Shown here piece after piece: positions 4,313 to 27,414 of a stretch of DNA of 35,450 nucleotides (position 1 is the stretch's first letter; the number at the start of each line of letters is the position of its first letter). Source of the DNA: Candidatus Gastranaerophilales bacterium. Lineage in GTDB: Bacteria > Cyanobacteriota > Vampirovibrionia > Gastranaerophilales > Gastranaerophilaceae. The notes beneath the pieces are model-generated. The model saw only the letters and a list, made by a program, of their open reading frames with translations, was not told the DNA's origin and ran no database searches. The translations under genes were made by a program, and so were the position numbers. The stretch lies in NCBI GenBank assembly GCA_900552525.1, contig UNSK01000017.1:1-35450 (forward strand), given 5' to 3'.

Positions 4313-5371
4313 ATGTTAATAGGTAAAATAAATTCCGGTAATTTAGGGTTTAAAGGTATATATGATCCGAATGTATTAATTACCGGCAGTTCAGGATATA
4401 TTGGAAGTCATTTGGTCCCCAAACTTGCAGATGACGGGGTTAATTGTATAGTGTGTTGCAGAGATAAATATAAACAGGAGTATCTAGATACTATTATTGC
4501 AGAGATAAACCGCTATAAGACTGATAAGAGTTTATGTTCTTTTGCAAATTTTGATTTGACTAATGAAGCAGAAATCAATAAACTTTTAAAAGAAAATAAG
4601 CCTGTGGATGCAGTTATCCACCTTGGAGGGTCAACATATAATTCCGAATCAATAGTTAATCCAAGGAAATATTATGATAACAATGTTATTGCATCAAGAA
4701 ATCTTGTTAACTCTATGCTTGACAATGATGTTAAAAATATCTTGTATGTTTCAACAGCATCAATTTATCCCAAAACTGTTCAAGGAAGAGTTTCCGAAAA
4801 AAGAACACCAGTTCCCAAAACCCCTTATGCAAAAACAAAATTCATTACAGAACAATTGATTAATGATTACAAGGTTTATGGTTTAAAATCTACAATCCTA
4901 AGACTTTTTAATGTTGCCGGAGCTCACGGGTTTAATGATTTGGATATTGGTAAAAATGTAATAACGGTACTTCTAAATTTGATAAAGGATAATAGGCTGT
5001 TTACATTAATGGGAAATGATTATCCTACTCCGGATGGTACATGTGTAAAAGATTTTATTCATGTTGATGATGTTACAGAGGCAATTGGTAAATCTGCGGC
5101 AAAGCTTTTAGAACCGGATACAGCTTCTCAAACTTATAATTTAGGTACCGGTAAGGGAACTTCTCTGGGTGAGCTTATAAGAAAAAGTATTGATATAACT
5201 GGTAAGGAATTAAAGCTTCGTATAGGAGCAGCATTAGAAGACGAAGTTCCAAGTTTAATTGCCAATAATACAAAAATTAAAAAAGATCTTGGATGGGCGC
5301 CTCAAAAAAATATAGATGAGATAATAACAAGCTGCTGGAAATGGATACTCCAGAACGGAGGTAAAAGATGA
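4313..5371 (+). CDS. NAD-dependent sugar-nucleotide epimerase/dehydratase (GalE-like SDR), with N-terminal FKG motif
   Basis: An extended short-chain dehydrogenase of 352 aa. The NAD-binding glycine motif GSSGYIGSHL lies at about residues 25-34, the Ser/Thr is in the STASIYP segment, and the catalytic pair is YAKTK (Tyr-x3-Lys). HVDDVTEAI and the C-terminal LGWAPQKNIDEII are typical of UDP-glucose 4-epimerases and related enzymes; the exact sugar cannot be read. Before the Rossmann fold sits an added N-terminus, MLIGKINSGNLGFKG, nearly the same as that of the 1599-aa GH13-like protein. The last 4 bases overlap the glgA start (ATGA), so the two are translationally coupled. It probably supplies or interconverts nucleotide sugars for the glycan cluster. 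Confidence 0.82.
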   Translation: MLIGKINSGNLGFKGIYDPNVLITGSSGYIGSHLVPKLADDGVNCIVCCRDKYKQEYLDTIIAEINRYKTDKSLCSFANFDLTNEAEINKLLKENKPVDAVIHLGGSTYNSESIVNPRKYYDNNVIASRNLVNSMLDNDVKNILYVSTASIYPKTVQGRVSEKRTPVPKTPYAKTKFITEQLINDYKVYGLKSTILRLFNVAGAHGFNDLDIGKNVITVLLNLIKDNRLFTLMGNDYPTPDGTCVKDFIHVDDVTEAIGKSAAKLLEPDTASQTYNLGTGKGTSLGELIRKSIDITGKELKLRIGAALEDEVPSLIANNTKIKKDLGWAPQKNIDEIITSCWKWILQNGGKR

Positions 5372-7989
5372 TATTAGCTGTAAGTGTAAATAATACCGGT
5401 TATACAAATAGGATACGTGCAAAAAAATCTGAGAAATTACAAAATAAATATTCAACAATCGCTTTTAAAGGCGGAGAAAATCCAAAGCAGGTTGCATTTG
5501 TTTCTTTTGAAACAGTTCCGATAAATAAAACAGGCGGTATGGCTGATGTTGTAGGCGAACTTGCACCGGAGTTAAATAAACGCGGTATGGATGTGAGATG
5601 TGTAATTCCTCTGCTTAATGCTCAGGGCGGAGTTCCTGTCAATGATAAGGGACAGCAGATATATAGAACACCAAAAGGCAAGGAGTTTCCTGTTAATGAT
5701 CTTGGAATAGATTTTGATTACGATTATGGTACAAAAAGCGGGAAAGGGAAGATTTTTAAGGTAAATGACAGTCGTGTAAAGTTTCCTGTGTATGTTCTTT
5801 ATTGTCCTGATGATGTTTCTAATAACAAAACAGAGTATCAGGGTTGGATAATGGATCAGGTTAAAAATCAGGAAGCTTTCTGTAAAGCAGGACTTGAAGC
5901 TCTTAAAAAACTAAAAGATGCTGAAGATTTTAACCCTAAATACGTTATGTCATATGAATGGACAACTGCACCGATTATAGAAGCTATGAGTAAGGATGAG
6001 TTTTATAAGGATAAAATTAAAATAGCAAATATAAATAATTTCGGGCCTGTCTATCAGGGGCGTGTAGGTGCGCCGGTAGCTGCACCATATATTTTGAACA
6101 ATCAGGAACTTGACAAACATTGTGCTGAACCGCGTGTAAGGGCTCTTCTTGAAGAAATCAGCAGAGCAGTTGAAGCTAGAGCCGGCGAGTTACATCCTTT
6201 AAATATTAATGAAGAAATTTCGAGAGGTGATTATAAAGCGGCTTATTTAAAAGTTGCTGAAAATTATGAAAAATATATTCCATACACAACAAATCATCTT
6301 GGATTTATGGATAGTATGGTTATGGACAGTTTTCCTAAAAAAGGGTGGTTTAAACAATATTATAACTTTTATGTACCTGCAGTTAGGACATCAGATTCAA
6401 TAGTAAGTTGTTCTGATACATACATAAGAGAATTAGCAGAGGAAGACAGGTATTCAGATGGTGTTTCTAACCTGATGAACTTAGAAAGGCTTAAGAGTTT
6501 TGGCATAACAATCGGTATGGATTACAGCCTCCATAACCCTGCTGCAACTGAAAAAGAAACAACTAACCCTGTTAAGTATCCATTTTCTGCTAATGAAAAA
6601 GAGCTTGAAACAAATTCCAATTTGTTAGATTATAAAACCGGTAAAGCTATGAATAAATCTTACCTTCAGGAAATTTTAGGGGCCAAGGTACCAGATAAGG
6701 AAACTGCTTTTAATAAAACAGTAGGTGCAAAGCAGTATGGTTTCCTTGAGAATGACCCGAATGCACTCGTTTCGACCTTTATTACACGATACGATCCACA
6801 GCAGAAGGGTGTTGATATTGTAATAAAAGCAGCAGAAAAATTGCTTGAAGAAGAAAAGGATGCACAAATAATTCTTGCAGGGCCGGATTTTAGTAAAGAT
6901 TATGCTCTTATAAAAGAGTATCTGGAGAATGTAGTGTATAAATATCCGGGCAGGGCAGTTTTGTGTGACGGTTTTATAAACAATATTTCACAGTTTTATG
7001 CAGGATCGGACACAGTTTTAATTCCCAGCAGATTTGCACCTTTTGAACTAGTTCAGCTTCAGGGTATGAGGATGGGGGCAATTCCGATAGTATCTAACGC
7101 TGGAGGGCTTGCCGAAATTATTGTAGATCCGCGGGAAGGCAGGGACGAAGAAATTCTCGGGTTTAAAACTGAAAAATCTCTTTTCCTTACGGATGATCCT
7201 TACAAATCATACTGCGATACAATAAAACGGGCACTTGATATTTATAGAAACGAACCGGCAACGTGGGATAAAATGCTTCTTAACGGTCTTAGATACAAAC
7301 GCAGCTGGGATTTGCCTGCACAAAAATATTTGGAAACAGTATTTAATCCTAAAAACTATAGTAACATTAAAGATTTGTTCTATATTGATTCAAAGTTTAG
7401 CACAGGTGAAATAACCTCAGAAAATCTTGAGAAACAAAGAGAAGATTTGGAGTACTTAAGGCATAAAGGTTATTCACAAATTATCCAGATTGATAAAGAG
7501 AATAAACAATTAAAAAATCTTGCTGCAGAATACGGTATAAAGTATAAAAATATCGAACTGGGTGATACTCCGACTGAGGAAAGTGCGGTAAAATTGCTAA
7601 AAGAAATTGATAATGACAGTGAAAAAAGTTTTATTAACGAGTCAGAAGGAAAAAATAATAAATCTGTACTGGCATGTTTCTACCTTGCATATAAAACTCT
7701 CGACAGCATCGATAAAATTATGGGAAAAATATGGACAGAGCGGGAGAAGGATTTTTATGAAGTAATATGGGGGGACAAAAATAAGATTAAAAATATTATG
7801 ACAAAGCTCTCAATACTTGGCGAGAAATATAGTCATGATATCAAAAAACTTTCTCTGGGCGAACTATTCAGTGTAAATGCCGGTTTTATAAATTCAGCAG
7901 CAAGAAGAACCAGAGAAATTCTTGAAAAATTCAAGGAATTGAACTCCTGGAAAGAGGTAGTATACTCAGGCAGACATTATATAAAATAG
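5368..7989 (+). CDS. glgA: Glycogen/starch synthase GlgA with N-terminal FKG motif and C-terminal extension
   Basis: An 873-aa GT5 glycosyltransferase that transfers glucose from ADP- or UDP-glucose to alpha-1,4-glucan. The N-lobe carries INKTGGMADVVGEL, the KTGG nucleotide-sugar loop (K54-G57). The C-lobe has the LVSTFITRYDPQQKG and ILAGPD segments, then PSRFAPFELVQLQG and NAGGLAEIIVD. It is far longer than the usual 480-500 aa, with an insertion in the N-lobe and about 200 extra C-terminal residues that are charged and helical. Where typical GlgA has SRFEPCGL, this protein has SRFAPFEL: Ala557 replaces the conserved Glu and a Glu appears at 560. Residues 29-35 (STIAFKG) carry the shared motif. 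GGAGG before the ATG and the 4-bp overlap set the start. Confidence 0.85.
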   Translation: MILAVSVNNTGYTNRIRAKKSEKLQNKYSTIAFKGGENPKQVAFVSFETVPINKTGGMADVVGELAPELNKRGMDVRCVIPLLNAQGGVPVNDKGQQIYRTPKGKEFPVNDLGIDFDYDYGTKSGKGKIFKVNDSRVKFPVYVLYCPDDVSNNKTEYQGWIMDQVKNQEAFCKAGLEALKKLKDAEDFNPKYVMSYEWTTAPIIEAMSKDEFYKDKIKIANINNFGPVYQGRVGAPVAAPYILNNQELDKHCAEPRVRALLEEISRAVEARAGELHPLNINEEISRGDYKAAYLKVAENYEKYIPYTTNHLGFMDSMVMDSFPKKGWFKQYYNFYVPAVRTSDSIVSCSDTYIRELAEEDRYSDGVSNLMNLERLKSFGITIGMDYSLHNPAATEKETTNPVKYPFSANEKELETNSNLLDYKTGKAMNKSYLQEILGAKVPDKETAFNKTVGAKQYGFLENDPNALVSTFITRYDPQQKGVDIVIKAAEKLLEEEKDAQIILAGPDFSKDYALIKEYLENVVYKYPGRAVLCDGFINNISQFYAGSDTVLIPSRFAPFELVQLQGMRMGAIPIVSNAGGLAEIIVDPREGRDEEILGFKTEKSLFLTDDPYKSYCDTIKRALDIYRNEPATWDKMLLNGLRYKRSWDLPAQKYLETVFNPKNYSNIKDLFYIDSKFSTGEITSENLEKQREDLEYLRHKGYSQIIQIDKENKQLKNLAAEYGIKYKNIELGDTPTEESAVKLLKEIDNDSEKSFINESEGKNNKSVLACFYLAYKTLDSIDKIMGKIWTEREKDFYEVIWGDKNKIKNIMTKLSILGEKYSHDIKKLSLGELFSVNAGFINSAARRTREILEKFKELNSWKEVVYSGRHYIK

Positions 7990-7992
7990 AAA

Positions 7993-8020
7993 TTGAAATT
8001 TGATATTTATGTAATATAAT
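7993..8020 (+). promoter_or_regulatory. Sigma70-type promoter for the 1599-aa GH13-like gene
   Basis: TTGAAA (7993-7998), 16-bp spacer, perfect TATAAT (8015-8020). This is the strongest consensus promoter in the window. A start near 8027 gives an AT-rich leader of about 125 nt, in which I see no strong structure. It would allow the GH13-like and AAA genes to be expressed separately from the epimerase and glgA. Confidence 0.6.
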
Positions 8021-8152
8021 TAAATGTGAAATTTAGTGGTAATGTGTATTATATACAATATTAAATTTTGTAAAATTTTTAATTTACATGCCGGATAAAT
8101 GGCAAAAAATATTTTTTTACATTCTTTATATATTTAGAAGGAGTTTCAGAAG

Positions 8153-11100
8153 GTGTTTGTAAATAAAATTAATAGTGTACAGAATATCGGGTTTAAAGGC
8201 TACCAGCACGTAAAGAATGATTTGGGCGAAACGGTAATGCGTTTTAATTTTCCATTTAACAGTGAAAAAGAAAACTGCGAAATCCAGATTTTCAGCGCTG
8301 CGCCGACAGAAAACTATAACTATAAGCTTTCTGCGGCTCCAATTGCTACAATACCTTTAAAACCGGAAGGTGTAGATGTTAATTTACAGGATATTACTAA
8401 CTTAGATAAAGATGCGCCTTTTGCATATAAAGTGGTTAGAAAAGACAAATCTACAGGGAAGGTTGTCTGGGAAGGTGCTGATACCGGTGTTAAAGTTAAA
8501 GAGCAAAATGGCGAATATGTAAATCGATTACAAGTGCATAATGTTGGTTTAGTTGAATCAAAAGATGGTACAAAAACTCTTGATTATGTTGGAGATCCTA
8601 TTAGCAATTATACACATACACTTGTTTCACGCAAGGGAACTACTCCAATAGTTCAAGGTGCGGGGTATTTGATTACTCCTGATTCTTTAATGCCAGGTGC
8701 AATGTATAGAGGTTTTACAGAAGAAAATACCGGTGAAATCTATTATGATAAAGATTTCCAAAATAAAATGGAAGGTGTTATAAAAAACTTTTCTAATATT
8801 TACGGCGGAAGTATTGCAGGTGCTCAGAAGGCAATTCCTTACTTGAAGGAAAATGGATACAAATATATGTTCTCTACTCCGATTGCAAACGGTTCCAAAG
8901 GCTGGTCTCTCGGATACTGGAATAAAAACAACATGCAGGTTTCTCCGAACATGGGGAATACAGAAAACTTTGCATCATTTTTCAGAGATTTGTATACAAA
9001 TGGGATGAAATACGTTTATGATGGTACATTTACTTCAGAAGGACTTGAAGGTATTCACTTCCAGTATGCTTTGAGATGGGCGGAAAAAACTCCTCAATCA
9101 TATTACTGGTTCAGAATGAGCGGTTTGAAAAATTCAAATCTGGGGCTGGGGGCTATCCCTAAAAATAAGGAAAACCTGAGATTTAGAGTTGTTAATGCGC
9201 CTTATAATTATCAGCTTCAAGCTAATAGTACGTATAAAAAAATCGTAAATCCTGATTATAATTCTAAAAAAGAAACAATGTTTCAGATTTATGATGCTTC
9301 TCAGGCAAGCGAGAAGCAGATAAAAGCATTAGATAAAGCTATAATTAACTATGAAAAATTAACAGAAGGCAAAGCGCTTGATATAAATAACCATGACGAT
9401 ACTGTAATTAACTTTATATTCCAGATAGACCCTAAAGAATATGATAGAAGAATTGATGTTATTAATGAACTAAATAAAAAATTTGGTAAGAATATTAACC
9501 TTGACTCTGCTGATGGTACAATCATGGCAGCTCAGTTCTCTAACTTTAAAATTGATAAGAAAACAGAGGGCGGATTTGTTACCTGGGATGCTAACACTGA
9601 TATGGTAAAAATGAATTACGGTATTTCCGGCTACGATGAAAAATTACTGCAGGCAATCGTAAGCCGTTCTGAACGTGATTATGAAAAACAAATGATTGAG
9701 CGCGGTGCTAGAGAAGTACAAGACTTGACTATTCAGTCTGGAAAATACTGGACTGGTAAAGTTAAAGATATTCAGACCATTTATACTGCTCAAACCGTGG
9801 GAAAAGCAAAAACAGTTGAAGACATCAATAAATTAATCAAAGATGGAAAATTGCCGGAAGAAGCTAAACTAAATAATGAAGCTCTCAGCAATATCTTGAA
9901 CGGACAATATCTGTTGGCCCCAAAAGGAGTTATGGTTAAGGATGATGTGACTGTAAAATCATTGATGAAGCTTCCTCTTGATACTCTGGAATTTGGTGAA
10001 AATACTGTAGGTGTACTTTCTACATCATATTTCTCAAACAGAGCAACAACGGATGAAACAGTCGGAGTTTCAAGATTTGACTTGATGAAACAGAACAATC
10101 CGCATCTTGTTGAACCATATGTAAAAAACTACAAACGAGTAAATAGTTTATTTAATAATGAAATTAAAGACTTTGCTGACGCAATTATTAAGCAGGTCAA
10201 TCAAACAGCTAATGAAAAACTTTTAGATAGTAACGGCGACTATACTGAATACGGCGAATATGTAATGGAGCTTGTTGGTCAGGATATTACTAAATATGCT
10301 TTCCTCAAATCATTAGGCGGTGATAATTTTAAGACAAAAATTCTGCCAAATGGCGAAATAACTTATGATTATGAAGCTTTGAAAGAAGGAACTAGCTTAA
10401 AGGCTCTTGATATAAACGGAAACAGTCCGGAAGACGAAGCTGAGAAACTAGAAAAGAAAATAGAAAAGGGAATTAAACATCTTTCTGATAGTGATATTTC
10501 TTATGTATCAGGGGCTATATCTAAAAGAATATCCGGTACAGATACTTCCAGTTTCCGTATCGCTGAGGCTCTTGTTGATAGAACAGGTCTCGGTTTAGAC
10601 TGGAGGCTTGATGCCTGCAAAGATGTTATTGATATGGATGCAATCCGTAATGAAGATAACGCTTTTGATGATAACTGGGATGCTGTAATAAAATTTTGGG
10701 AGAAATTTGTACAAGGAGTAAAACAAGAAAATCCAAATTCCTACTTGGTTGCTGAAATTACAGATATAGAACCATTACTTCAAGAAACATATGGTTCAAA
10801 TGCATATCCTTATAATAATATGACAAATGTAGGACAGAAATTTAATGGAGAACCTGATACTTTTGTAAAATTCTTTAACGAAACAGGTATTACCTCTGAA
10901 GCTGCCTATTCTTATTTCTTTACGGATTTATTAACGAATTTTGCTCCTTCATTTGACACTGGTACTACTGATAACAGCGAAAATCATGACCGTTTTAAAG
11001 CTCGTTTTGAATTGCTAATGCAGACAAGAAGTGTTGATTATCTGAGAAACCTGTATACCTTTATGGGAAACCATGATAAGCCGCGTATGATTCATGGTCT

Positions 11101-12952
11101 GGCAGTTGATATGTCAATGTTCCATGCTAATATTCTTGGCTCAGATGAAAGAGGGCATAAAACCCGCGAGGCTGCAATAGAAGTATTATCTGGTGCAAAA
11201 ACAGCAGCAGATGTGCCAATAGAATTAAGATTAAATGTTGATAATAATGACTACTTCTTAACTACATCAGCAAGAGCCGTTGCAACAAGCAAGCTTTTGA
11301 TGGATGTAATAAATGAAGAAAAATCAATTTCAGAAGAAGATAAAAAACGCTTAATTGATGCGCTTATTGACTTAACTAATGGTAACTATCTCGGTGAAGG
11401 TGTTACTGATAGTATGCAGAAAATTAAGATTAAAGAACTTTCTTCTTTACAAGCAGCTTTCGAAGAAATTTTGAAGCTCTCTGGTGTAGCCCTTACAAAT
11501 GCAGAAATTGCAGAAGTAATAAAGAAAGCTAATGAGTTAAAGATTTCTGACTACTTAGTCCATGGTGATTTGGATTGGAAGGATATAGATCCGAAAATAA
11601 AAGAACGTAATGAAGCAAATGCAAGAGATATTTTAGGCAGTCAGAGTGATTATGGCAAGTATAGTTTATATACGGTTCAGCTTGCAAAATTACTCAAGGA
11701 TGCTTATGCCCAAACAAACCCTAAGAAATCATTAGATGAAGGCTTCAAAGCTTTTGCAGAAAAATATGATAAAAATACTGTATTAGCTAATACAGAAGGG
11801 TTTAAGCGTATTGAAGATCCTGTAACTGCAATGAAAAAGAATGGATATGCAGCAAGAGATCTTAAAGTCGCTCTAAAAATGGCTGTTAAGCAAGCAGAAT
11901 TTAAATCAGGCAAGCCTATAGAAAATAAAGAAACTATAATTGATTCTGCTTATAAATCTGCTACAGAGGCAGCTGTAGTAAAAGCTTCAATGATTATGGA
12001 ATTTTTAAAAGGGCTTCCTGGTATACCTACAATGTATTCAGGTGATGAACTTGGTATGACAGGTTATGAAGAGAAAGCTAAAAACGTATACCTTCAAAAC
12101 AGAAATGCTCTTCCTTGGACAGAAACCGAAGGTGAATCTGATATTGCGAAATATAGAAGAACTGTTATGAGTGCAATGAACGGGGCTTTAAAAGACAGAA
12201 GTAATCCTGAACTTGCTCCGTTGAATAATGGTACTCCTTATGCTCTTGAGGTTAAGGCTCACAACTTTACAAGAAGTGAAGCAACGGCAAGACTTGGGAA
12301 TATTGGTGACAGAATAAATGAGATAAATGAGCAATTAAAGAGTAAAACTGCAGATAAAGCATTAAGTGCAGAGCTGAAAAAATTAGAGGAAGAAAGAAGG
12401 TTACTATCAAAAGATTTTGCTAAGATTGCTTATATGATGCAGAGTGCAAACGGCGATATGACAGTAACTCTGTTTAATGCCGGTGATGTAGATTTTTCAA
12501 ATAGATGTAATTATTTTGAAAAATATGGTTTGGATACAGAGGAAAAACGTAAAAAATTCTTTGAAGAAAATAATATAGAAACAATAAATCCAGATAATAA
12601 ATACATTCCAATACTTCCAAAATCTGAAGTAGATGCAATTATGCTTGGAGCAGGAATTGCAATTCCGGTTGGTACGGTATTTACAAACGCTAATGCCAAG
12701 GATAAAACGCAGTATGTTGTAAAAGAGATTGGCGGAAAACTCGGCATTGTTAAAAAAGACGGCGGAAAAATTGTAATGGATGGCAAGACTGCTAAAAATG
12801 GCGTAATGATTTTGAAACATATTAAGAATATCATATTTAAAGGTGCGCCGAAGAAAGTTTATTACAATAAACAATATAATTTTGCATCATATCCGTATAA
12901 ACAGCCTGAGCAGACAATTCAAGGAGAAAAACTTTCAATTTTAGCAAAATAA
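8153..12952 (+). CDS. Giant GH13 (alpha-amylase superfamily)-like protein, 1599 aa, with N-terminal FKG motif
   Basis: It starts at a GTG with AAGGAG 9 nt upstream. The N-terminus MFVNKINSVQNIGFKG matches the epimerase tag. A beta-rich segment follows that could be a CBM48-like domain. GH13 landmarks are spread over about 690 residues: region I YVYDGTFTS (D290), region II GLDWRLDACKD (nucleophile D820), region III YLVAEITD (acid/base E868) and region IV FMGNHDKPR (D975), then LPGIPTMYSGDELGM. The catalytic triad is intact, but the region I Asn-His pair is replaced by Thr-Ser and about 500 residues are inserted between regions I and II. A further helical insertion follows region IV. There is no signal peptide, so it is probably cytoplasmic. 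Likely an alpha-glucan hydrolase, debranching or transfer enzyme; the exact activity is not readable. Confidence 0.78.
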   Translation: MFVNKINSVQNIGFKGYQHVKNDLGETVMRFNFPFNSEKENCEIQIFSAAPTENYNYKLSAAPIATIPLKPEGVDVNLQDITNLDKDAPFAYKVVRKDKSTGKVVWEGADTGVKVKEQNGEYVNRLQVHNVGLVESKDGTKTLDYVGDPISNYTHTLVSRKGTTPIVQGAGYLITPDSLMPGAMYRGFTEENTGEIYYDKDFQNKMEGVIKNFSNIYGGSIAGAQKAIPYLKENGYKYMFSTPIANGSKGWSLGYWNKNNMQVSPNMGNTENFASFFRDLYTNGMKYVYDGTFTSEGLEGIHFQYALRWAEKTPQSYYWFRMSGLKNSNLGLGAIPKNKENLRFRVVNAPYNYQLQANSTYKKIVNPDYNSKKETMFQIYDASQASEKQIKALDKAIINYEKLTEGKALDINNHDDTVINFIFQIDPKEYDRRIDVINELNKKFGKNINLDSADGTIMAAQFSNFKIDKKTEGGFVTWDANTDMVKMNYGISGYDEKLLQAIVSRSERDYEKQMIERGAREVQDLTIQSGKYWTGKVKDIQTIYTAQTVGKAKTVEDINKLIKDGKLPEEAKLNNEALSNILNGQYLLAPKGVMVKDDVTVKSLMKLPLDTLEFGENTVGVLSTSYFSNRATTDETVGVSRFDLMKQNNPHLVEPYVKNYKRVNSLFNNEIKDFADAIIKQVNQTANEKLLDSNGDYTEYGEYVMELVGQDITKYAFLKSLGGDNFKTKILPNGEITYDYEALKEGTSLKALDINGNSPEDEAEKLEKKIEKGIKHLSDSDISYVSGAISKRISGTDTSSFRIAEALVDRTGLGLDWRLDACKDVIDMDAIRNEDNAFDDNWDAVIKFWEKFVQGVKQENPNSYLVAEITDIEPLLQETYGSNAYPYNNMTNVGQKFNGEPDTFVKFFNETGITSEAAYSYFFTDLLTNFAPSFDTGTTDNSENHDRFKARFELLMQTRSVDYLRNLYTFMGNHDKPRMIHGLAVDMSMFHANILGSDERGHKTREAAIEVLSGAKTAADVPIELRLNVDNNDYFLTTSARAVATSKLLMDVINEEKSISEEDKKRLIDALIDLTNGNYLGEGVTDSMQKIKIKELSSLQAAFEEILKLSGVALTNAEIAEVIKKANELKISDYLVHGDLDWKDIDPKIKERNEANARDILGSQSDYGKYSLYTVQLAKLLKDAYAQTNPKKSLDEGFKAFAEKYDKNTVLANTEGFKRIEDPVTAMKKNGYAARDLKVALKMAVKQAEFKSGKPIENKETIIDSAYKSATEAAVVKASMIMEFLKGLPGIPTMYSGDELGMTGYEEKAKNVYLQNRNALPWTETEGESDIAKYRRTVMSAMNGALKDRSNPELAPLNNGTPYALEVKAHNFTRSEATARLGNIGDRINEINEQLKSKTADKALSAELKKLEEERRLLSKDFAKIAYMMQSANGDMTVTLFNAGDVDFSNRCNYFEKYGLDTEEKRKKFFEENNIETINPDNKYIPILPKSEVDAIMLGAGIAIPVGTVFTNANAKDKTQYVVKEIGGKLGIVKKDGGKIVMDGKTAKNGVMILKHIKNIIFKGAPKKVYYNKQYNFASYPYKQPEQTIQGEKLSILAK

Positions 12953-12974: not shown

Positions 12975-14420
12975 ATGAGAGTTGGAATAGTCGGAATAAA
13001 TAGCACTAATTTATTAAATAATCGGTACAAATTACACTCTAAAGTTTCAGCACCAAATATGGTTTTTCGGGGTATATTTGGATCTCCTGATGTTTCAGAG
13101 AAATTTAGATATGGTTTAGAAGCTTTGGACGAACATTCATTGCTTGTTGTGACTTCAAATGAAGAAATTGCTGATATGATTTTGTCACAAAACTCGGATA
13201 AGATAGATACTCCAATATTAAAAAAGTATACATTGAATGTTGAGAAAAAAGATTTGAAGAATAAAATTACCTTAGATTCAGATTTTGTAATATTCAAGAA
13301 ACAAGATAAGTTTTTTATTATGGGGGTGGGAAATCTTTTCCCTCTGACTGTGCAACGGCCGAAAGAAGATTTTGATAGTGATAAACACCAGTTCAAAGCA
13401 GGGCTTGTAAAAGAACTTCGTGCCGGCGAGGAAATAAGGACTGGTGAGTTGCTCTGGGGAGAAAAACCTAAATTTGTTTTTAATCCGCCTTACAAATATA
13501 ATCCTTCAAATGCAGAAAAATATTTAAAGGTGAAATCTATAACAAACCTTAAAGAGTTTAATAAAAGAACAGTGACTTCTCTTTGTACAGAAACAAATAC
13601 GTCTGATGATAAGAAAGTTTTTACATTTGCAGACATCGGAGGTTTAGATGAGGCTATAGCGACACTTAAAAAGTATGTTGTCCGTCCGATAAATTATCCG
13701 AAAGTTTTCGAAAATATAAGGCTGAATAAAGGTATTCTGTTATGGGGACCGCCAAGATGCGGAAAAACTTTATTAGGGAAGGCGCTTGCATATGAAACCG
13801 GTGCGAAGTATAGAGAATTTAACGCAAATGAGTTTAAAAGTGCGCAGGTGGGTGCTTCTGAAGCATCAATAAGAGATGTCTTTCAAAAAGCAGTGGCTGA
13901 TGCCCCATCAATTACTTTTATTGATGAATTTGATTCAATTGCTAAAACAAGGGATGGGTCTTCCAATGCTCGTTTTGATGACCCTATAGTAAATCAGTTT
14001 CTCGGTTGTATGAGTGATTTAGAAAAGAACAAAGCTCCTGCATTTATTGTTGCAGCTACAAATATGAAAAATTTAATAGATCCGGCTCTTCTTGCATCTG
14101 GACGTTTCGGACTGCATATAGAAATTCCTATGCCAAATCTTGAAGGATTGAAACAAATTTTTAAAATTCATTCTAAAAATCAACCGCTTTTTGGAGATGT
14201 TTCTGTAGATAAGCTTGTTACTGCTATGTTCGAGAATAAATTTAACGGCGCGGATGTTGCTGAAATGATTACGGATGCATTCTTTAATGCAATAGAACGC
14301 TTGGGACTTCATGAAAAAATGGATGCAAGAACTTTTGGTTTCGAAGATTTAAAAAAGATTTTAATTTCCAAAGCTGATTTTGAAAAAGCTTTGGAAAGAC
14401 TGGCTAAACAGAAGCTTTAA
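12975..14420 (+). CDS. AAA ATPase of the glycan cluster with unique N-domain and N-terminal FRG motif
   Basis: 481 aa. Residues about 216-450 form a classical AAA module: FADIGGLDEAI, Walker A GPPRCGKT (258-265), Walker B ITFIDEFD (D317, E318), NARFDDPIVNQFL, sensor-like AATNM, and DPALLASGRF, close to the Cdc48/FtsH/katanin branch. Walker A has Arg-Cys where Gly-Thr is usual. No protease motif (HExxH) or membrane segment is visible. Residues 34-215 are a domain I do not recognise, presumably the substrate or partner domain. APNMVFRG (F31-G33) is the shared N-terminal motif. It lies 22 bp after the GH13-like gene and probably remodels or unfolds a partner in the same system, which is inference from context. 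Its 3' end overlaps the convergent ldpA gene by 17 bp. Confidence 0.8.
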   Translation: MRVGIVGINSTNLLNNRYKLHSKVSAPNMVFRGIFGSPDVSEKFRYGLEALDEHSLLVVTSNEEIADMILSQNSDKIDTPILKKYTLNVEKKDLKNKITLDSDFVIFKKQDKFFIMGVGNLFPLTVQRPKEDFDSDKHQFKAGLVKELRAGEEIRTGELLWGEKPKFVFNPPYKYNPSNAEKYLKVKSITNLKEFNKRTVTSLCTETNTSDDKKVFTFADIGGLDEAIATLKKYVVRPINYPKVFENIRLNKGILLWGPPRCGKTLLGKALAYETGAKYREFNANEFKSAQVGASEASIRDVFQKAVADAPSITFIDEFDSIAKTRDGSSNARFDDPIVNQFLGCMSDLEKNKAPAFIVAATNMKNLIDPALLASGRFGLHIEIPMPNLEGLKQIFKIHSKNQPLFGDVSVDKLVTAMFENKFNGADVAEMITDAFFNAIERLGLHEKMDARTFGFEDLKKILISKADFEKALERLAKQKL

Positions 14421-20902: not shown

Positions 20903-20931
20903 ATAGTAACATAAATTGCCATCTCCGGCAA
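20903..20931 (-). promoter_or_regulatory. Promoter of the ykgJ-rlmN-...-ldpA operon, probably leaderless
   Basis: On the minus strand TTGCCG (20926-20931), 17-bp spacer, TACTAT (20903-20908) with TG one base upstream. A start about 7 bp downstream falls at or next to the ATG at 20895, leaving no room for a ribosome binding site. Confidence 0.5.
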
Positions 20932-20932
20932 T
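20915..20932. promoter_or_regulatory. Inverted repeat between divergent operons, possible operator
   Basis: ATTGCC, 6-nt centre, GGCAAT. It covers the -35 box of the minus-strand operon and lies about 50 bp before the superoxide reductase start, so a regulator bound here could act on either side. It is too short to assign to a known regulator. Confidence 0.35.
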
Positions 20933-20982
20933 GAAAATAAATAGTAAGCAGGTAACATATAAAATACAGAAAGGATATCGAT

Positions 20983-21375
20983 ATGGCAACAGAAAAATTA
21001 CAGTTATATAAATGTGAAGTATGCGGAAATCTGGTTCAAGTTATTCTATCTGGAGCCGGAGAGCTTGTTTGCTGCGGCCAGCCTATGAAACTTCAGTCTA
21101 TTCAGCATGACAAAAGTGAAACAGGTGAGAAGCATGCTCCAGTTGTAGAATTTAGGGAAAATGACAGATTTGTACAGGTGAAATCTCATCCAATGCTTCC
21201 TGAACATTATATTCAGTTTATAGAAATTTATAAAAAAGATAAATCTGAACTGCATCTTAAGTACTTAAATCCTGGTGATATTGCGGAATTTAATATAACC
21301 TGCCTTCCGGAAGAAATTGATGCAATAGAATTCTGTAATATACACGGTTTATGGGGAGAAAATAAGAATGATTAG
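20983..21375 (+). CDS. dfx: Desulfoferrodoxin-type superoxide reductase (2Fe-SOR)
   Basis: 130 aa. The N-terminal desulforedoxin domain has the four-Cys centre C11-x2-C14 and C30-C31. The catalytic domain supplies the Fe(His)4Cys site: EKHAP (E49, K50, H51), SHPMLPEHYI (H69, H75) and CNIHGLW (C118, H121). It reduces superoxide to hydrogen peroxide without releasing oxygen, typical of anaerobes. AAAGGA at 8 nt sets the start. The last 8 bp overlap the ferritin gene, so the pair is coupled: superoxide removal together with iron sequestration. Confidence 0.95.
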   Translation: MATEKLQLYKCEVCGNLVQVILSGAGELVCCGQPMKLQSIQHDKSETGEKHAPVVEFRENDRFVQVKSHPMLPEHYIQFIEIYKKDKSELHLKYLNPGDIAEFNITCLPEEIDAIEFCNIHGLWGENKND

Positions 21376-21856
21376 TGACAAAATTAATGAAATTATAAAT
21401 GAACAAATTAACAAAGAATTCTTTTCAGGATATTTATATCTTTCAATGTCTGCATATTTAAAAGAACTCGGGTTATTTGGTTTTTCTTCATGGCTAAAGA
21501 AACAGGCTAAGGAGGAAGTCGAACACGGCCTTAAACTTTTTGACTATCTGATTGAAAGAAACAGCTTTGTAACCTTGAAGCAGATAAAAACTCCTGAATT
21601 TGAGTTTAATGGAATTATCTCAATATTTAATAAAATACTTGAACATGAAAAATGTATCACAGAATCTGTCATGAAAGTTGCAAAACTTGCAGAAGAAGAA
21701 TGCGACAGAACTACTCTTTCTTTTATAGACTGGTTTATAGATGAACAGGTCGAAGAAGAACAGACAGTACGCGATATAATTAAGCGCCTTGAACTCTTTG
21801 GCGAAGACAAGGTTTCGCTTTACCTTATGGACAAAGAATTAGGAGAAAGGCAATAG
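21368..21856 (+). CDS. Non-haem bacterial ferritin
   Basis: 162 aa, a four-helix ferritin. Ferroxidase ligands are visible at E17, E50, H53, E94, Q127 and E130 (KKQAKEEVEHG and IDEQVEEEQ are hallmark segments). It stores iron as ferric mineral in a 24-mer. Overlap with the superoxide reductase gene and a GGGGAG upstream fix the start, and a strong terminator follows 4 bp after the stop, defining a two-gene oxidative-stress operon. Confidence 0.94.
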   Translation: MISDKINEIINEQINKEFFSGYLYLSMSAYLKELGLFGFSSWLKKQAKEEVEHGLKLFDYLIERNSFVTLKQIKTPEFEFNGIISIFNKILEHEKCITESVMKVAKLAEEECDRTTLSFIDWFIDEQVEEEQTVRDIIKRLELFGEDKVSLYLMDKELGERQ

Positions 21857-21859
21857 TTG

Positions 21860-21885
21860 AAAAAGGACTAATATAGTCCTTTTTT
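21860..21885 (+). terminator. Rho-independent terminator of the SOR-ferritin operon
   Basis: Perfect stem AAAAGGACTA / TAGTCCTTTT with a 3-nt ATA loop, followed by more T residues (TTTTTTC). Confidence 0.88.
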
Positions 21886-22033
21886 CTTGTATTATTTTTT
21901 TGTTTTTGTTAAATTAATTGTGTGTGTTTTATATGTCTAAAACATTGTAAAAAAATGTAAAGTTCATGCTTTTTAAATAGCAAAAAATAAAATTTTAGGG
22001 ACTTTTAATATATAGGTACCAGATGGGGTTCGT

Positions 22034-23107
22034 ATGATTAAAGCAGTAAAATTAGCAGATAATAATGTTATGTTTGGAGCTAAACCGGAGAAGAAAGAAA
22101 ACGGTGAAGTAGAATCCAGAATTTTGCCTAATACTTTACGTACAAGAATGCAGCAAAAATACCAGAAAACAACAAATGCATTTTTGCAGTATCCTGTAAA
22201 AGGCTTTAAGGGTGATGTAAACTCAGATTTCTATGAATTTTTATCAATGGGGATTGTGCCATATTTACTTGGAAGTGCTATGTTTATGGGATTATTTAAT
22301 CTGCTGAAAGATTTGAACCCGAAATCCCAGAAACTTGCAAATATTAATGGAAATAAAATGGCTCTCGGGGTTGTTTTATATGGTTTGTTTAAAACACTCT
22401 CTAACGATTTAGTTACCAGACCTGTTTACTGGGGCACCGGTGTTGATATAGAACTTCCGATTGAGCATGTATATTATCCTCTTCCAAAAGAAGCTGGAGA
22501 AGCTGCTAATATAGTTCCGCAAATACAGCAGAGAAAAGTTTATGACAGCAGGGAATTCTTTAGAAAAGATTTAATCCAAAAAGATATCGGGGTCGAATAT
22601 TACGATAAAATTGCTAAGAAAATTGGATTAGGTGAAGATTTGAATGATTCTGTAACAGAAACAACTCCTATTATTCAAAGCATTATCTCAACAACCAAGA
22701 CAGCGAAGAGTCTATCATCATATGCTTGGGCTGGCGTTGGCGTTGGACTTGCTGTTCAGAACAGCTGGACTAATTTCTTTGATGCAATTTCAAATAGAAA
22801 ACGTCATATTGCAAAACCTGGAGAGGGTTTTGGAACCAAAATGGCTAGCCGTATGAAAAATGCCGGAGAAAATTTTGTAAATATTTCTAAGACATTCGGA
22901 AAATCATTCGGTCAGGCTTTCAAATCTCTATGGACCGGTGATGCAGGCAAAAGCGGCTTTATGAAGCATGCCGGAAAAGCATGGCTGTTATTTACAGCAG
23001 CACTTACTGTAGGAAGTACAGCAAATGTTATTTACAAGGCAAGACATATGGGAAAATTGGCAAATAAAGATATTATGGACAAATCAAAAGAAAGTACGGT
23101 GATTTAG
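22034..23107 (+). CDS. Unknown membrane-associated protein with N-terminal FGA motif
   Basis: 357 aa, no family recognised. The N-terminus is MIKAVKLADNNVMFGAKPE, whose VMFGA (13-16) fits the motif shared with other glycan-cluster proteins. Hydrophobic segments lie near 70-90 (MGIVPYLLGSAMFMGLF), 228-242 (Gly-rich) and 315-334 (WLLFTAALTVGSTANVIY), with a weaker one at 108-122, so it is probably a multi-pass membrane protein. A basic stretch (residues 254-300) precedes the last segment. GGGG 6 nt before the ATG is the likely ribosome site. It is the first gene of a three-gene operon, 1 bp before the 854-aa gene; the 177-bp upstream region holds the preceding terminator and AT-rich DNA with no clear promoter. 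Confidence 0.7.
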   Translation: MIKAVKLADNNVMFGAKPEKKENGEVESRILPNTLRTRMQQKYQKTTNAFLQYPVKGFKGDVNSDFYEFLSMGIVPYLLGSAMFMGLFNLLKDLNPKSQKLANINGNKMALGVVLYGLFKTLSNDLVTRPVYWGTGVDIELPIEHVYYPLPKEAGEAANIVPQIQQRKVYDSREFFRKDLIQKDIGVEYYDKIAKKIGLGEDLNDSVTETTPIIQSIISTTKTAKSLSSYAWAGVGVGLAVQNSWTNFFDAISNRKRHIAKPGEGFGTKMASRMKNAGENFVNISKTFGKSFGQAFKSLWTGDAGKSGFMKHAGKAWLLFTAALTVGSTANVIYKARHMGKLANKDIMDKSKESTVI

Positions 23108-23108
23108 T

Positions 23109-25673
23109 ATGGCAATTAATCCTGTTCAACCAAATATTGAAAATACTAAGTCTCATATCCCTTACAGAGAAGCAAAGGGGACTATTAAAACTGACAAAAA
23201 TGTGAAACCGCTTCCGCCGGAAGGACATCTGGTTCATGATTCATGGACAATGCTTCCTAAGTATTTTCTTAAAGATATTGCGTATGATATGAAGGCGGTA
23301 AAAGATGGTTTTCAGGGAAATGCCAACGACCACCAGCTTGGCAGACTCAATGATGTAGGGCTTAAGCTGGGCGGTATCGGAATTGCAACTATGCTTGCAG
23401 CAAGAACCAAAAATCCTATGGTTAGAATCATGGAATATGCCGGTCTGGGTGCATTTTTAGCAGCAATGTCTATTTATCCGCAAGTCGCAATAAATGCTCC
23501 TTCAAGAATTGTTCAGGGATTTGATATCGGAAAAGAATATATTGATGATCAAGGCCGTAAAAAATCTGTACTCCAAGACCCTAATTATATTCCTTTTGAT
23601 ATGTATCAAGGGGATTATCCGGGGGAAGATTTAGATATCATAGGTGATAGACTTGGTATCCCTAGAGGTGTTAAAAACAGAGATGATTTAACAAAAGAAC
23701 AAATGAGAAAAATTGGTATTCAGAATAATACCCTCTGGATGATGACTGCGGCTTCTGTACCTGTATTCTCAGCTTTAATATGCTGCGGGTTGGAAAAATT
23801 AATTGCTCCGGCATTAGAAAAAGCAAGAAATTCCCGCTATAATTCTAAAATTAATCATGCTCTTAATGTTACTGAAAAAATGTCCGAGCAAATAAATAGC
23901 ATTCCTGCTAATAAACTAAGCAAAGATGTTGAAAAAATATTAGTTAATTATAAAAATCAAGAATTGCCAAAGGCAGAGTTTGATAACCTGATGAAGCTGT
24001 TTACAAAAAATATGGATGCAAATGCTTCTGAGGGGATTAAAGCTGACCTTGAAAAAATCTTTATGAATGAGAAAAATGGAGTAAAATCTTATTTGCTTCC
24101 TGACAATCTTGCTGATGATATAGCTGGTTCTATTAAGGAAAATTTATCCTCAAGAAATAGGGCAACTTTAGAAAAAGTTTTTGTTCCATCAACTTCTGAA
24201 ATAAATGAAATCTTAGGAAAAGCCGGTTCAAAAGAAATAACTGAAGAGCAGCTGCAAAATATCAAAGGTGAATTTAGAAAACTTTTCGAAAAGAATATGG
24301 AAAATGAGTCCGGAATTTCTAAAACTGCTCTTAAAGCTTATGAAAATGAAGTATTAGACTCAATATCTAAAAAGATTAAAGGTAATTCCTCAAATTATGT
24401 AAGTGAAAACAATATCAAAGATGTTGTTGATTTTGCAAAAGTTATGGGAGAATTTAAAGAAAATCAAAAAGTTCTGGATAAATGTAAATCGTTCAAGATT
24501 GAGTATGCTCCGGAAACTGTAATTGCTCGTTCTTACGGTAAATTTGAAAGTACGCTCTTAGATGTACTTGATATTAAATATAAAGATTTAAAACAAATCA
24601 GCGAGTCTGATAAATATGCTCAGGAAATCTTTGAAAAGAAACTTGAAGCTTTGACAAAAGATGAAGTAAAATATCAAAAAGCTATTGAAAAACTTTCTAA
24701 AGTTATGTCAGAGATGGAAGTTAACCTCAATGGCAAAAATGATACAGCTTCTCATATGAAAGATTTGATATCAGGAATTGAAAACAATTACAACAATACT
24801 GCAAAACGTCTTAATAACATTGGAAAATTCAAGAATACAATTGACAGGCTTGTAAAAGAAGATGTTTCTACTCTGTCAAATTCAGTTAAATCAAGAAAAG
24901 ATTTGTATGAATTTCTTGATGGTGTTAAAAAAGATAAGTATGCAGGTATCAACTATTGGGGAAATTTAGATGATGCCGGACGTCTGGAATATGCTAAATA
25001 TAATTCAAAAGGTGTAGGTTCTTCTAAAAATCTGGAAATTTCAAGAATCGTTGAAAGATATCAAGGTGCAAATAATTCATTCAATAGAATTTTACATTTA
25101 TTTGATGTCTATAAACGTCCAATTCCGGAAGGCGGATATGACAAAGAGATTCTTGCAAAAGGTAAAGAAGCTTTAATGACAGCAACATCTTCAGATCATA
25201 CATTGAAGCTTAATACGATTAATAATCCTGAGTATTATAAAGATTTGATGCGTACAATTTGGCTTCCTAATTTGGATAATACTACTCAGAAAGGGTTAGA
25301 CGCATCAAAAGATTTAGCTTCCGGAAATATCCAAGGTCGTTTAAAATCTTATATTCAAAGATTTCAGGATATTATAGGCAATAATAATATAGATTTTACA
25401 AAACCTCAGCATATTTTAAACGGCGATGCAGTTAACAACTATACAAAATCATCCCGTACAAGAATGGCTAAATTTAATCTTGTTGCACAAAATCCGGTAG
25501 ACTTGATTAAAAATGCTGCAGGAAAAAGATATGGTAATCAAAAATGGCTAAGAATAGCATCAGGCATTGGCGGGGCAGTCTTTGGTACAGCTATTCTGGC
25601 GCAGTTTGGTTTTGGTAAAATAAGAAATCCTCAAAATATACAGAAGCAGGTGAATGATGATGCAAATAGCTAA
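23109..25673 (+). CDS. Unknown 854-aa membrane-anchored helical protein
   Basis: No family recognised. Hydrophobic segments occur at about 86-98, 110-128 (AGLGAFLAAMSIYPQVAIN) and 208-228, and one at the C-terminus (816-836, Gly/Ala-rich). Between residues 240 and 810 lies one large domain, charged and mainly helical with coiled-coil-like stretches (for example EVKYQKAIEKLSKVMSEMEV), anchored at both ends. The N-terminus is polar and lacks the FKG/FGA motif. It follows the 357-aa gene by 1 bp and overlaps the GH13 gene by 20 bp, so all three products are made together. A scaffold or membrane docking role for the enzyme is possible but purely contextual. Confidence 0.7.
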   Translation: MAINPVQPNIENTKSHIPYREAKGTIKTDKNVKPLPPEGHLVHDSWTMLPKYFLKDIAYDMKAVKDGFQGNANDHQLGRLNDVGLKLGGIGIATMLAARTKNPMVRIMEYAGLGAFLAAMSIYPQVAINAPSRIVQGFDIGKEYIDDQGRKKSVLQDPNYIPFDMYQGDYPGEDLDIIGDRLGIPRGVKNRDDLTKEQMRKIGIQNNTLWMMTAASVPVFSALICCGLEKLIAPALEKARNSRYNSKINHALNVTEKMSEQINSIPANKLSKDVEKILVNYKNQELPKAEFDNLMKLFTKNMDANASEGIKADLEKIFMNEKNGVKSYLLPDNLADDIAGSIKENLSSRNRATLEKVFVPSTSEINEILGKAGSKEITEEQLQNIKGEFRKLFEKNMENESGISKTALKAYENEVLDSISKKIKGNSSNYVSENNIKDVVDFAKVMGEFKENQKVLDKCKSFKIEYAPETVIARSYGKFESTLLDVLDIKYKDLKQISESDKYAQEIFEKKLEALTKDEVKYQKAIEKLSKVMSEMEVNLNGKNDTASHMKDLISGIENNYNNTAKRLNNIGKFKNTIDRLVKEDVSTLSNSVKSRKDLYEFLDGVKKDKYAGINYWGNLDDAGRLEYAKYNSKGVGSSKNLEISRIVERYQGANNSFNRILHLFDVYKRPIPEGGYDKEILAKGKEALMTATSSDHTLKLNTINNPEYYKDLMRTIWLPNLDNTTQKGLDASKDLASGNIQGRLKSYIQRFQDIIGNNNIDFTKPQHILNGDAVNNYTKSSRTRMAKFNLVAQNPVDLIKNAAGKRYGNQKWLRIASGIGGAVFGTAILAQFGFGKIRNPQNIQKQVNDDANS

Positions 25674-27414
25674 AATTATGCCAGTTAATTTCAGAGCTGC
25701 TGCAGCAAAGCAGCCGTTGGTTAGTAAGCCTTCAGAAGAAAAGAATGCAGATAGTAATGTATCTGCAAAATATCTTGAAAATCTGGCGCGCTTAAATGCT
25801 CCTGCAGTTAAAAAGATTGATTTAGCAGCTGCTAATAAAGCACCTTATAAAAATAATTTGAGGACAATGATTCAGAATAATCAAGCCGTAATGATGGCAA
25901 TTGTCCCAAGAACATTTACAGCTCAGGATTTAAACGGCGATGATAAAGTAACGTTGAGTACAGGTGAAAAATGCGGTACTTTGTTAAGTGCAATTTCAAG
26001 GTTGGACGAATTAAAAGCTGATGGCATTAATACAATACATATTCTTCCAATTCATCCGCCAGGAAAGAAGAATGCAATGGGTACTGCAGGTTCGCTTTAT
26101 TCTCCTGCAAAATATGTAACTGACGACGGACATCTTGCTATAGATCCAATGATTGTTGATAAGAATGATCCTAGGACACCGGATGAACAATTCAAGGCTT
26201 TAATTGATGAATGCCATAAACGCGGTATCAGAGTTATGTTAGATCTTCCAAGCTGCGCATCTGTTGATATGTTTGAAGCAGAACCTGAACTTATGGCATA
26301 TGGAAGGAACGGTGAAGATAAAACTCCTCAAGGCTGGGCTGATATTAGAATGTTTGAGCCATGGGCAGATGAGGCAGAAAGAACTTTAAATCCAAAATTA
26401 TTGGAAATGCATAAGCAATATGTAGATGCTTGTATTGACCTTGGTATTGATGGTATACGAGCTGACGTTGCAAGAGCAAAACCGCCTGAATTCTGGGATG
26501 TTTTAATTAATTATTCAAGAAAAAGAGATCCAGAATTTGCGTGGCTTGCTGAAAGCTATACATATGAATGTGCTTCTCCAATGGTAAATATGCCTTATGA
26601 TAGACCGGAAGATTTATTAAGAGCTGGGTTTGATGAATATTATGGACAGTATCATATTTTCCACGACTGGAGAAATTGTTCGGATTTTAATGACTATGTA
26701 AAATTAAACTTAGACTTATCTCATAGACTACCGGCAGGGAAGAGTGTAATTGGTTCATTCTTGACACACGATGACAGTTCTTCAATGATTCACGGCGGAG
26801 AAAATTTCTGTAAGCTAACTACAATTTTACAGTCAACAATCCCAATGTGTAATCCGTATTTTATTGATGGTTTCCAGACTGGTGACTATTATGATTATAA
26901 ATATAGAGATACAGAAAATATTGAAACCTATACTGAAAAAACATTGATGAACGAGCATAGATATCGTCTGGCTCTGTTTAACCTTTCAAGAAAACCTGGT
27001 GGCGATTGTCCTGATATAGAAAGAGTCATGAAAGGTGCTCTCAAGATGAGAAGTGAAAATCTGGACGTACTGGCAGATAGAAACAGCAGTTTTATAGAAC
27101 TTGATAAACGTGAAGATAAATATGACCAGATTATTACATATGCTAGACATAACAATGGCAGAACTATACTTGTAGTTGCAAACAAAAATCCAAATAGAAA
27201 TGTAACAGGGATTATCGAAATACCTGGTTTGAAAGAAACACAGAAATTAGAAAACATGGTGCCTGAATATGGCGAAACAAGTGAATTCCAGGTAAGCGAA
27301 AACGAGTTAAGAGTAAATCTTGCACCTGCAGATGCTTATGTCTTCGAAATAGACACACCAAATTTGGAAAATGATAGAAAAGAGCACGCTTTTAAACAAA
27401 AAGTCCATGACTAA
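25654..27414 (+). CDS. GH13-family enzyme resembling GlgE-type maltosyltransferase, with N-terminal NFRA motif
   Basis: 586 aa. GH13 landmarks: region I RVMLDLPSCAS (D197), region II GIDGIRADVARA (nucleophile D271), region III FAWLAES (acid/base E300), region IV FLTHDD (D373). The segments ILPIHPPGKKNAMGTAGSLYSPAKY and AGFDEYYGQYHIFHDWRN look closer to GlgE (GH13_3, extends alpha-glucan from maltose-1-phosphate) than to amylases, and GlgE also lacks the region I His. Against this, the N-terminal Ig-like domain of GlgE is missing and no maltokinase (Pep2) gene is nearby. The N-terminus MMMQIAKIMPVNFRA fits the shared motif. A beta-rich C-terminal domain closes the protein. There are three consecutive ATG codons at the start; the gene overlaps the previous one by 20 bp. 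Confidence 0.8.
   Translation: MMMQIAKIMPVNFRAAAAKQPLVSKPSEEKNADSNVSAKYLENLARLNAPAVKKIDLAAANKAPYKNNLRTMIQNNQAVMMAIVPRTFTAQDLNGDDKVTLSTGEKCGTLLSAISRLDELKADGINTIHILPIHPPGKKNAMGTAGSLYSPAKYVTDDGHLAIDPMIVDKNDPRTPDEQFKALIDECHKRGIRVMLDLPSCASVDMFEAEPELMAYGRNGEDKTPQGWADIRMFEPWADEAERTLNPKLLEMHKQYVDACIDLGIDGIRADVARAKPPEFWDVLINYSRKRDPEFAWLAESYTYECASPMVNMPYDRPEDLLRAGFDEYYGQYHIFHDWRNCSDFNDYVKLNLDLSHRLPAGKSVIGSFLTHDDSSSMIHGGENFCKLTTILQSTIPMCNPYFIDGFQTGDYYDYKYRDTENIETYTEKTLMNEHRYRLALFNLSRKPGGDCPDIERVMKGALKMRSENLDVLADRNSSFIELDKREDKYDQIITYARHNNGRTILVVANKNPNRNVTGIIEIPGLKETQKLENMVPEYGETSEFQVSENELRVNLAPADAYVFEIDTPNLENDRKEHAFKQKVHD

Follow-up and report, generated by a model that had tools for sequence, protein, structure and literature searches.

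The window analysed here is a 35,450-nucleotide stretch of contig UNSK01000017.1 from a Candidatus Gastranaerophilales bacterium, and it contains two gene clusters in which proteins of unrelated folds carry, close to their N-terminus, a short peptide centred on a phenylalanine (hereafter the tag). The genes of the first cluster are all co-directional and lie on the forward strand. It starts with a gene for a FliI/SctN-type export ATPase (2551..3897), which scores above the FliI/YscN subfamily cut-off and below both the FliI and the SctN equivalog cut-offs, and which belongs to a second type III apparatus. Next comes an open reading frame (ORF) for a 110-amino-acid protein without Pfam match (3969..4301), bearing a variant of the tag, C-K-A, at 4002-4010. 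The four genes that follow encode a GalE-like NAD-dependent epimerase (4313..5371, Pfam Epimerase, tag F13-K-G), a GlgA-like glycosyltransferase (5368..7989, Pfam Glyco_transf_5, tag F33-K-G at 5464-5472), a 1599-amino-acid GH13-like protein (8153..12952, Pfam Alpha-amylase, tag F14-K-G at 8192-8200) and an AAA ATPase (12975..14420, Pfam AAA, tag F31-R-G at 13065-13073). In the epimerase, leader and tag together read MLIGKINSGNLG-FKG and span 4313..4357 of the forward strand. The second cluster comprises genes for a 357-amino-acid membrane protein (22034..23107, forward strand), with a weak tag, F14-G-A at 22073-22081, for an 854-amino-acid protein (23109) and for a 586-amino-acid GH13 enzyme, hereafter GH13S (25654..27414, forward strand, tag F13-R-A at 25690-25698). 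A preliminary description of the window had listed six such peptides and proposed that they act as a sorting, docking or processing tag; all six were found in the ORFs named there. The leaders of the six proteins are polar and lack a hydrophobic core, and therefore do not qualify as Sec signal peptides; the strict motif filter used below itself removes hydrophobic leaders. The preliminary description also held that no flagellar protein carries the motif, which is not strictly true, as the FliI/SctN-type ATPase contains Q-F-K-G at residues 27-30 (FKG at 2632-2640). This FKG is probably part of the ATPase's own domain and it was not counted as a tag.

Conservation of the tag is clearest in the AAA ATPase. 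All 90 listed homologues of 440-530 amino acids match a broad form of the motif within residues 6-80, against a chance level of 29 among the 122 proteins of that length in the reference genome G001. This genome is the nearest relative available (its AAA ATPase is 69% identical) and 1.55 of its approximately 1.9 Mb were examined; like the other genomes used, it is metagenome-assembled, with gene starts taken from purpose-made gene calling. In an alignment of 43 AAA sequences, hand-picked from 120 listed homologues, the tag phenylalanine (F31) is invariant in 43 of 43, and Met1 is the one other residue among the first 80 or so positions, up to residue 80, that never varies. In the same alignment the tag has G or A in 41 of the 43 sequences, positions 3 and 6 are aliphatic in 41 and 42 of them respectively, and the phenylalanine is preceded by 15-50 poorly alignable residues. 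For the epimerase, leader and tag are present in all 25 full-length members of its clade and in one of the 91 other listed matches (P0189, 68% identical over 36% of the query), which is itself a clade member; nearly all matches beyond the clade start at the Rossmann strand, without the tag. Orthologues of the 1599-amino-acid GH13-like protein retain F-K-[GA] down to 42% identity, the three GlgA orthologues read FRS, FRS and FKR, the orthologues of the 357-amino-acid protein that share this N-terminus read FKA, FKA and FGK, and orthologues of the 110-amino-acid protein have T-T-Y-K-G and P-S-Y-R-A in place of the C-K-A of the window. The FRA of GH13S is retained in 120 of 120 listed homologues of 86-99% identity, a good many of which are near-identical, some of the 99% identical ones being named Candidatus Gastranaerophilales bacterium HUM_3, HUM_13 or HUM_18. 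The near-identity of the epimerase and GH13 leaders, pointed out in the preliminary description, is a feature of this species, most GH13 orthologues reading MF[VI]NKINGV or similar.

AlphaFold models indicate that the leaders are disordered, with a predicted local distance difference test (pLDDT) score below 50 for residues 1-16 in the epimerase and for residues 1-33 in the AAA ATPase, the latter modelled from the 99% identical homologue P0001. The concern that the tag might simply be a structural element of each fold does not stand for the two proteins tested, as the models are disordered and the GalE-like proteins outside the clade lack the tag. Because the phenylalanine stays constant while the leader drifts, and because the models are disordered, the tag is, on the evidence of alignments and predicted structures, a lineage-specific, disordered and selected peptide added to unrelated folds, at least in the AAA and epimerase families. 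Disorder in both models and absence from GalE-like proteins outside the clade agree with the general class of a sorting or docking tag; the more specific addresses proposed for it found no support, as detailed below.

The bare motif is not enriched at N-termini. Among 1036 proteins of the reference genome, F[KRHNQYGSTC][GA], F[KR]G, F[KR][GA] and FGA occur at about level frequency over residues 1-120, and de novo enrichment of N-terminal tripeptides returned no F-x-G word in the top 30, which are mostly hydrophobic, signal-peptide-like words. A strict signal was then defined as a polar leader followed by [VILPTAFM]-[small/polar]-F-x-[GA]. It is found in 35 of 1419 proteins of the reference genome (about 2%), against 4 to 16 for eleven altered motifs, among them replacements of F by Y (5), L (15), I (15), V (10) and W or M (4), and the form F-x-[ST] (16). 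When compared with interior counts, ten of the eleven altered motifs differ at p <=0.006 (uncorrected), F-x-[ST] being the one that does not (p = 0.09). A start of the form M-x-[IVL], which lies outside the motif definition and in which x was drawn from a set of 12 residues, occurs in 21 of the 35 strict matches versus 209 of the 1384 other proteins (p = 3e-9), and versus 29 of the 101 swap-control matches retained by the same leader filter (p = 0.001). The objection that the motif is no more frequent at N-termini than expected is thus borne out for the bare tripeptide and fails for the fuller signal, with its leader context and M-x-[IVL] start. In its fuller form the tag reads M-x-[IV]-x-x-[IV]-[NS], a polar leader and then [VIPT]-[NSAG]-F-[KRHNQTS]-[GAS]. 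With an acid-free start and an aliphatic residue also required, 41 tag clusters were collected from the reference genome, the individual loci and genomes G045 and G081; judged by eye, about 30 of these are genuine, and a transporter, a CysS-like and an S15-like protein, also named by eye, look accidental. A variant F[TS][GAS], taken from the distant AAA-like N-termini TTFTG, VNFTG, ISFTA and VSFTS, yields a few more likely tags in G081 and G045; its 8 strict matches in the reference genome are no more than those of the controls (5 to 21).

The proteins that carry the tag are diverse. A Pfam scan was run on 28 tagged proteins from the reference genome and other loci, some of which were chosen by eye and miss the strict filter. 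No cut-off was passed by 24 of them, and the remaining four are a second AAA protein, a GNAT protein, an HTH-repeat protein and a protein with a protein-kinase-like domain (31.8 bits for a cut-off of 31.7). Below the cut-offs, ankyrin-like (two proteins), HNH-like and coiled-coil matches were obtained, many proteins gave no match at all, and some tagged proteins are about 100 amino acids long with a membrane segment after the tag. Predicted membrane segments are not over-represented (9 of 35 tagged proteins versus 381 of all 1419). With AAA, GNAT, HTH-repeat and kinase-like members the tagged set has no glycan specificity, and the suggestion that the tag directs enzymes to a glycan granule is not supported. 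The same applies to a shell address: the bacterial microcompartment (BMC, PF00936) and encapsulin (PF04454) families are in none of the 57 genomes scanned, in which controls were positive. Shells are thus unlikely, and a microcompartment or encapsulin cargo tag was rejected. Among the proteins without Pfam match is one of 252 amino acids with a tag-like leader (L052:8746-9504), which contains DCYLMSSLETLS, reminiscent of a calpain-like active-site region.

Several tagged enzymes coexist with untagged relatives. Genome G009 encodes the tagged epimerase plus a leaderless GalE-type match, and the reference genome encodes a leaderless GlgA-like protein. GH13S is accompanied by a second GH13 paralogue (33-41% identity) in 52 of 146 genomes of the class, 65 of which have any match. 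By eye, this second paralogue starts with a Sec signal peptide in the reference genome and in all six other genomes sampled (for example at L175:12604-14151), the leader of GH13S being polar. Tagged copies standing beside cytosolic or Sec-exported copies are what would be expected if the tag sends its protein elsewhere. A side observation concerns the GlgA-like protein of the window (5368-7989), which retains K-T-G-G and has F-A-P-F-E-L at the site where the catalytic Glu of glycogen synthases would be expected; it may be altered or inactive.

Two type III core sets are encoded by the reference genome. The flagellar set consists of FliF-G-H-I at C1:153-158 kb and of FliP, FliR, FlhB and FlhA at C5:13-19 kb. 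The second set includes SctN at C5:181607, which is the orthologue of the window ATPase at 2551 and distinct from the FliI of the FliF-G-H-I cluster (C1:157182), SctV at C6:51707, which falls below both the FlhA and the SctV cut-offs, FliN-, FliP-, FliQ- and FliR-like proteins at C1:265254-269123 and an FlhB-like protein at C5:189021. Within 1.55 Mb, FliI, FliP and FlhB each occur twice, as do full-length FlhA-type proteins, and a third FliI-like protein is 31% identical; we infer the assignment of each FlhB to the flagellar or the second set from its neighbour genes. FliF-like and FliH-like genes adjoin SctV in genome G081. The FHIPEP family is present in 56 of 57 genomes and SctV (at least 60% identity) in 68 of the 146 genomes of the class. 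Among the 51 genomes of the 81-100% group, a second full-length FlhA is listed only in the reference genome. The gene content suggests that a second type III export apparatus is conserved across Gastranaerophilales, also where no flagellar-type FlhA is listed. In an earlier survey (Soo et al. 2014, PMC4040986), six of nine Gastranaerophilales genomes had only a subset of the flagellar genes, which was taken for an incomplete flagellar set; our results suggest that these genes instead make up a second type III apparatus of its own. The literature on secretion in Melainabacteria/Vampirovibrionia, judged by titles and abstract openings, yielded nothing on type III export.

Two further families were noticed in connection with this apparatus. 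The first, grouped with the second set in the reference genome, is a protein of about 490 amino acids that consists of a stand-alone FlhA/SctV C-terminal domain (C11:10374-11840, that is L188:10374-11840); similar partial matches were found in many sampled genomes. The second is a family of approximately 420-520 amino acids starting with MGMAASQ[AV]R, encoded some 8-13 kb or less from SctV in two genomes (L184:2875-4434 and L247:4569-5819) and also present in the reference genome at C2:12536, C2:192468 and C2:207017; the one member scanned had no Pfam match. It is possible that members of this second family are parts or substrates of the second apparatus.

Gene order suggests a connection of the tag with this apparatus. 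In 12 of the 17 loci with upstream sequence (L109 and L007 being the same genome), SctN and the tagged GH13-AAA pair form part of one co-directional run; in three of these 12 the 110-amino-acid ORF, the epimerase and GlgA lie between, and in one further genome (L110) SctN stands beside the 110-amino-acid ORF and the epimerase. Like a type III signal, the tag is N-terminal and unstructured (pLDDT below 50 over leader and box in two unrelated proteins), and it is found in genomes that encode a type III apparatus, with two core sets in the reference genome. PMC3338616 describes three patterns in Pseudomonas syringae type III effectors, namely an aliphatic residue or proline at position 3 or 4, no acidic residue in the first 12 and more than 10% serine in the first 50. 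The first two are combined in 19 of 47 motif proteins of the reference genome versus 180 of 1028 others (odds ratio, OR, 3.2, p = 3e-4), in a test for which the motif was taken without leader selection and which covered 1075 of the 1287 proteins of at least 110 amino acids, those with hydrophobic N-terminal stretches being left out. Controls gave OR values of 0.69-1.04 for the Y, L, I and V swaps, 0.88 for the motif at residues 101-153 and 0.70 for genome G060, which has no FlhA. The P. syringae-type pattern is an association and not a rule that every tag obeys. In G060, six strict matches were obtained in 492 genes (600 kb), none convincing by eye, and the combined filter retained 1 of 492 proteins versus 29 of 1930 in three other genomes (p = 0.009); shared ancestry explains this low count equally well. 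Genome G147, with one weak match and no full SctV, encodes a distant AAA-like protein with an F-T-G box and a GH13S without box. Since nearly every genome of the lineage has the apparatus and the assemblies are incomplete, this comparison of presence and absence is a weak test.

The explanation that we favour, with a probability of roughly 0.4, is that the tag is a type III export signal of the second apparatus. It would be a lineage-specific N-terminal targeting signal of Gastranaerophilales, which are non-photosynthetic gut Cyanobacteria, made of two parts. The first is a disordered leader, rich in N/Q/S/T and mostly free of acidic residues, in which positions 3 and 6 are aliphatic; the second, placed before the folded domain, is a box built around the phenylalanine, [VIPT]-[NSAG]-F-[KRHNQTS]-[GAS]. 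The signal would mark proteins for putative export in the unfolded state through an apparatus composed of SctN/V/R/S/T/U-like and FliF-, FliH- and FliN-like parts, kept beside or without a flagellum. The window operon, with its epimerase, glycogen-synthase-like enzyme, GH13 and AAA ATPase, could then be an export cargo operon located directly behind SctN, with the host, a protist or the gut lumen as possible recipient. A broader proposal, more tentative still, is that the so-called incomplete flagellar sets reported in non-motile Gastranaerophilales form a functional second type III system, which would have a motif-bearing signal of its own and export dozens of proteins, including parallel glycan enzymes, ankyrin-like, kinase-like and small membrane proteins.

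A number of observations weigh against type III export. Several tagged proteins, namely the AAA, GNAT and HTH members, may be ordinary cytosolic proteins. The SctV of the second apparatus scores, in the reference genome, nearer to FlhA than to SctV. Five of the 17 GH13-AAA loci have another gene upstream instead of SctN, and in the reference genome as a whole 2 of 21 tagged genes lie within 6 kb of second-apparatus genes (P = 0.11), a count from which the adjacent AAA gene is absent as it misses the strict filter; this proximity not being significant, the case for linkage comes from the window operon and the synteny around it. Orthologues of GH13S at 58-63% identity have a polar leader without the box in all six genomes examined, five of which have SctV; this counts against an indispensable role of the box. 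The P. syringae-type association was not significant in the smaller sample of G081 (1 of 7, OR 0.98), and the control pattern [LIVY]-[TS]-[GAS] was itself positive (OR 1.9 in the reference genome, 3.75 in G060), perhaps due to N-terminal Rossmann folds. The serine rule is met in only 7 of the 41 tag clusters. The gate recognition motif of flagellar substrates has the form F-x-x-x-hydrophobic and was rejected as an identity for the box, the hydrophobicity at +4 from the phenylalanine being 0.32 versus a background of 0.34. In early rod and hook subunits it stands 19-30 residues from an N-terminal hydrophobic signal, according to the excerpt of PMC8983047. The tag resembles this arrangement in having small hydrophobic residues near positions 3-7 and then a separate downstream motif, and differs from it in the +4 position, no more hydrophobic than background, and in a spacing that is often shorter, with the phenylalanine at residue 7-16 in 19 of the 41 clusters. 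As for the effector patterns themselves, PMC3338616 reports that they were dispensable in one effector.

The main rival is intracellular docking, in which the Phe box of the disordered leader would bind a hub or a membrane receptor and gather the proteins in the cytoplasm. The invariant phenylalanine, the variable disordered flanks and the tolerance at +1 and +2 resemble a receptor-binding short linear motif, several of the tagged proteins are plausible cytosolic enzymes, and docking would also accommodate tagged copies that coexist with leaderless or Sec-exported paralogues. However, no candidate hub can be named, shell families are lacking in all 57 genomes, the tagged set has no common pathway, and neither the aliphatic 3/6 pattern nor the acid-poor start is obviously required for docking. 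From the neighbouring export ATPase and the second apparatus we infer export rather than gathering inside the cell, and consider docking less likely than export. Less probable again is a signal for another route, be it another secretion system, membrane insertion or proteolysis at the F-x-G box. The box does lie near the border between leader and domain, as a cleavage site would, but the residue after the phenylalanine varies (K, R, H, N, Q, G, T, S), unlike that of most cleavage sites; likewise, the membrane segments predicted in 9 of the 35 tagged proteins are no commoner than overall. That the tag is part of each fold, as a first strand or cap, is very improbable: the residues directly after the box of the AAA ATPase (L-F, then P) are also conserved, but both AlphaFold models, which cover two of the window's six proteins, show the region as disordered, and epimerases outside the clade begin at the Rossmann strand without it. 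A composition effect, by which the N/I/K-rich N-termini of AT-rich genomes would yield F-K-G by chance or from one duplicated leader, was already disfavoured and is the least credible of all, for the level frequency of the bare motif, the few accidental-looking strict matches and the one altered motif that is not significantly rarer are outweighed by a phenylalanine that never changes even though the leaders differ in sequence and length, by F-swap controls 2-9 fold lower and by the M-x-[IVL] association (p = 3e-9, and p = 0.001 versus swap controls).

Read as a type III export signal, the tag can be compared with known systems. It shares with the P. syringae effector signals, as described in the excerpt of PMC3338616, an aliphatic residue at position 3 or 4 and an acid-free start, and differs from them in being rich in Asn/Gln rather than Ser and in having a conserved Phe box, which falls outside those pattern rules. 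A precedent for glycogen enzymes is provided by Chlamydia, in which GlgA and GlgB acquired type III signals (PMC9251005, in excerpt); GlgA, GlgB and CT295 of Chlamydia trachomatis are, as here, glycan enzymes with N-terminal export signals (PMC9251005; see also PMC3722199). That case differs from ours in that Chlamydia is an intracellular pathogen in which housekeeping enzymes gained the signals, in place of a second tagged copy, and in that no common motif appears in the excerpt of PMC9251005. A different comparison is with cargo peptides. The tag is short and borne by unrelated enzymes, as are the cargo peptides of microcompartments and encapsulins, by which unrelated enzymes are brought to a common site; unlike these, it is disordered in models and is found in genomes without any shell gene (0 of 57).

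No published description of the tag was found in the literature, as judged by titles and abstract openings. If the export reading is true, the conserved box of this type III signal would make the secretome of an uncultured gut lineage readable from its genomes; we know of no earlier type III signal of that kind. To our knowledge, Gastranaerophilales, which live in human and animal guts, have hardly been studied in culture. An N-terminal address readable from sequence would allow the proteins that they send elsewhere to be listed and, if the tag is the signal of the apparatus, it would become directly testable which products these bacteria release or inject, and which recipients are involved.

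One more gene of the window may be related to this set. At 47..544 on the forward strand lies the C-terminal part of a membrane protein, the orthologues of which are about 61 residues longer. Its N-terminus is probably located beyond the window start, and the leaders of its orthologues are tag-like, reading A-F-E-H, A-F-T-H and S-F-G-H.

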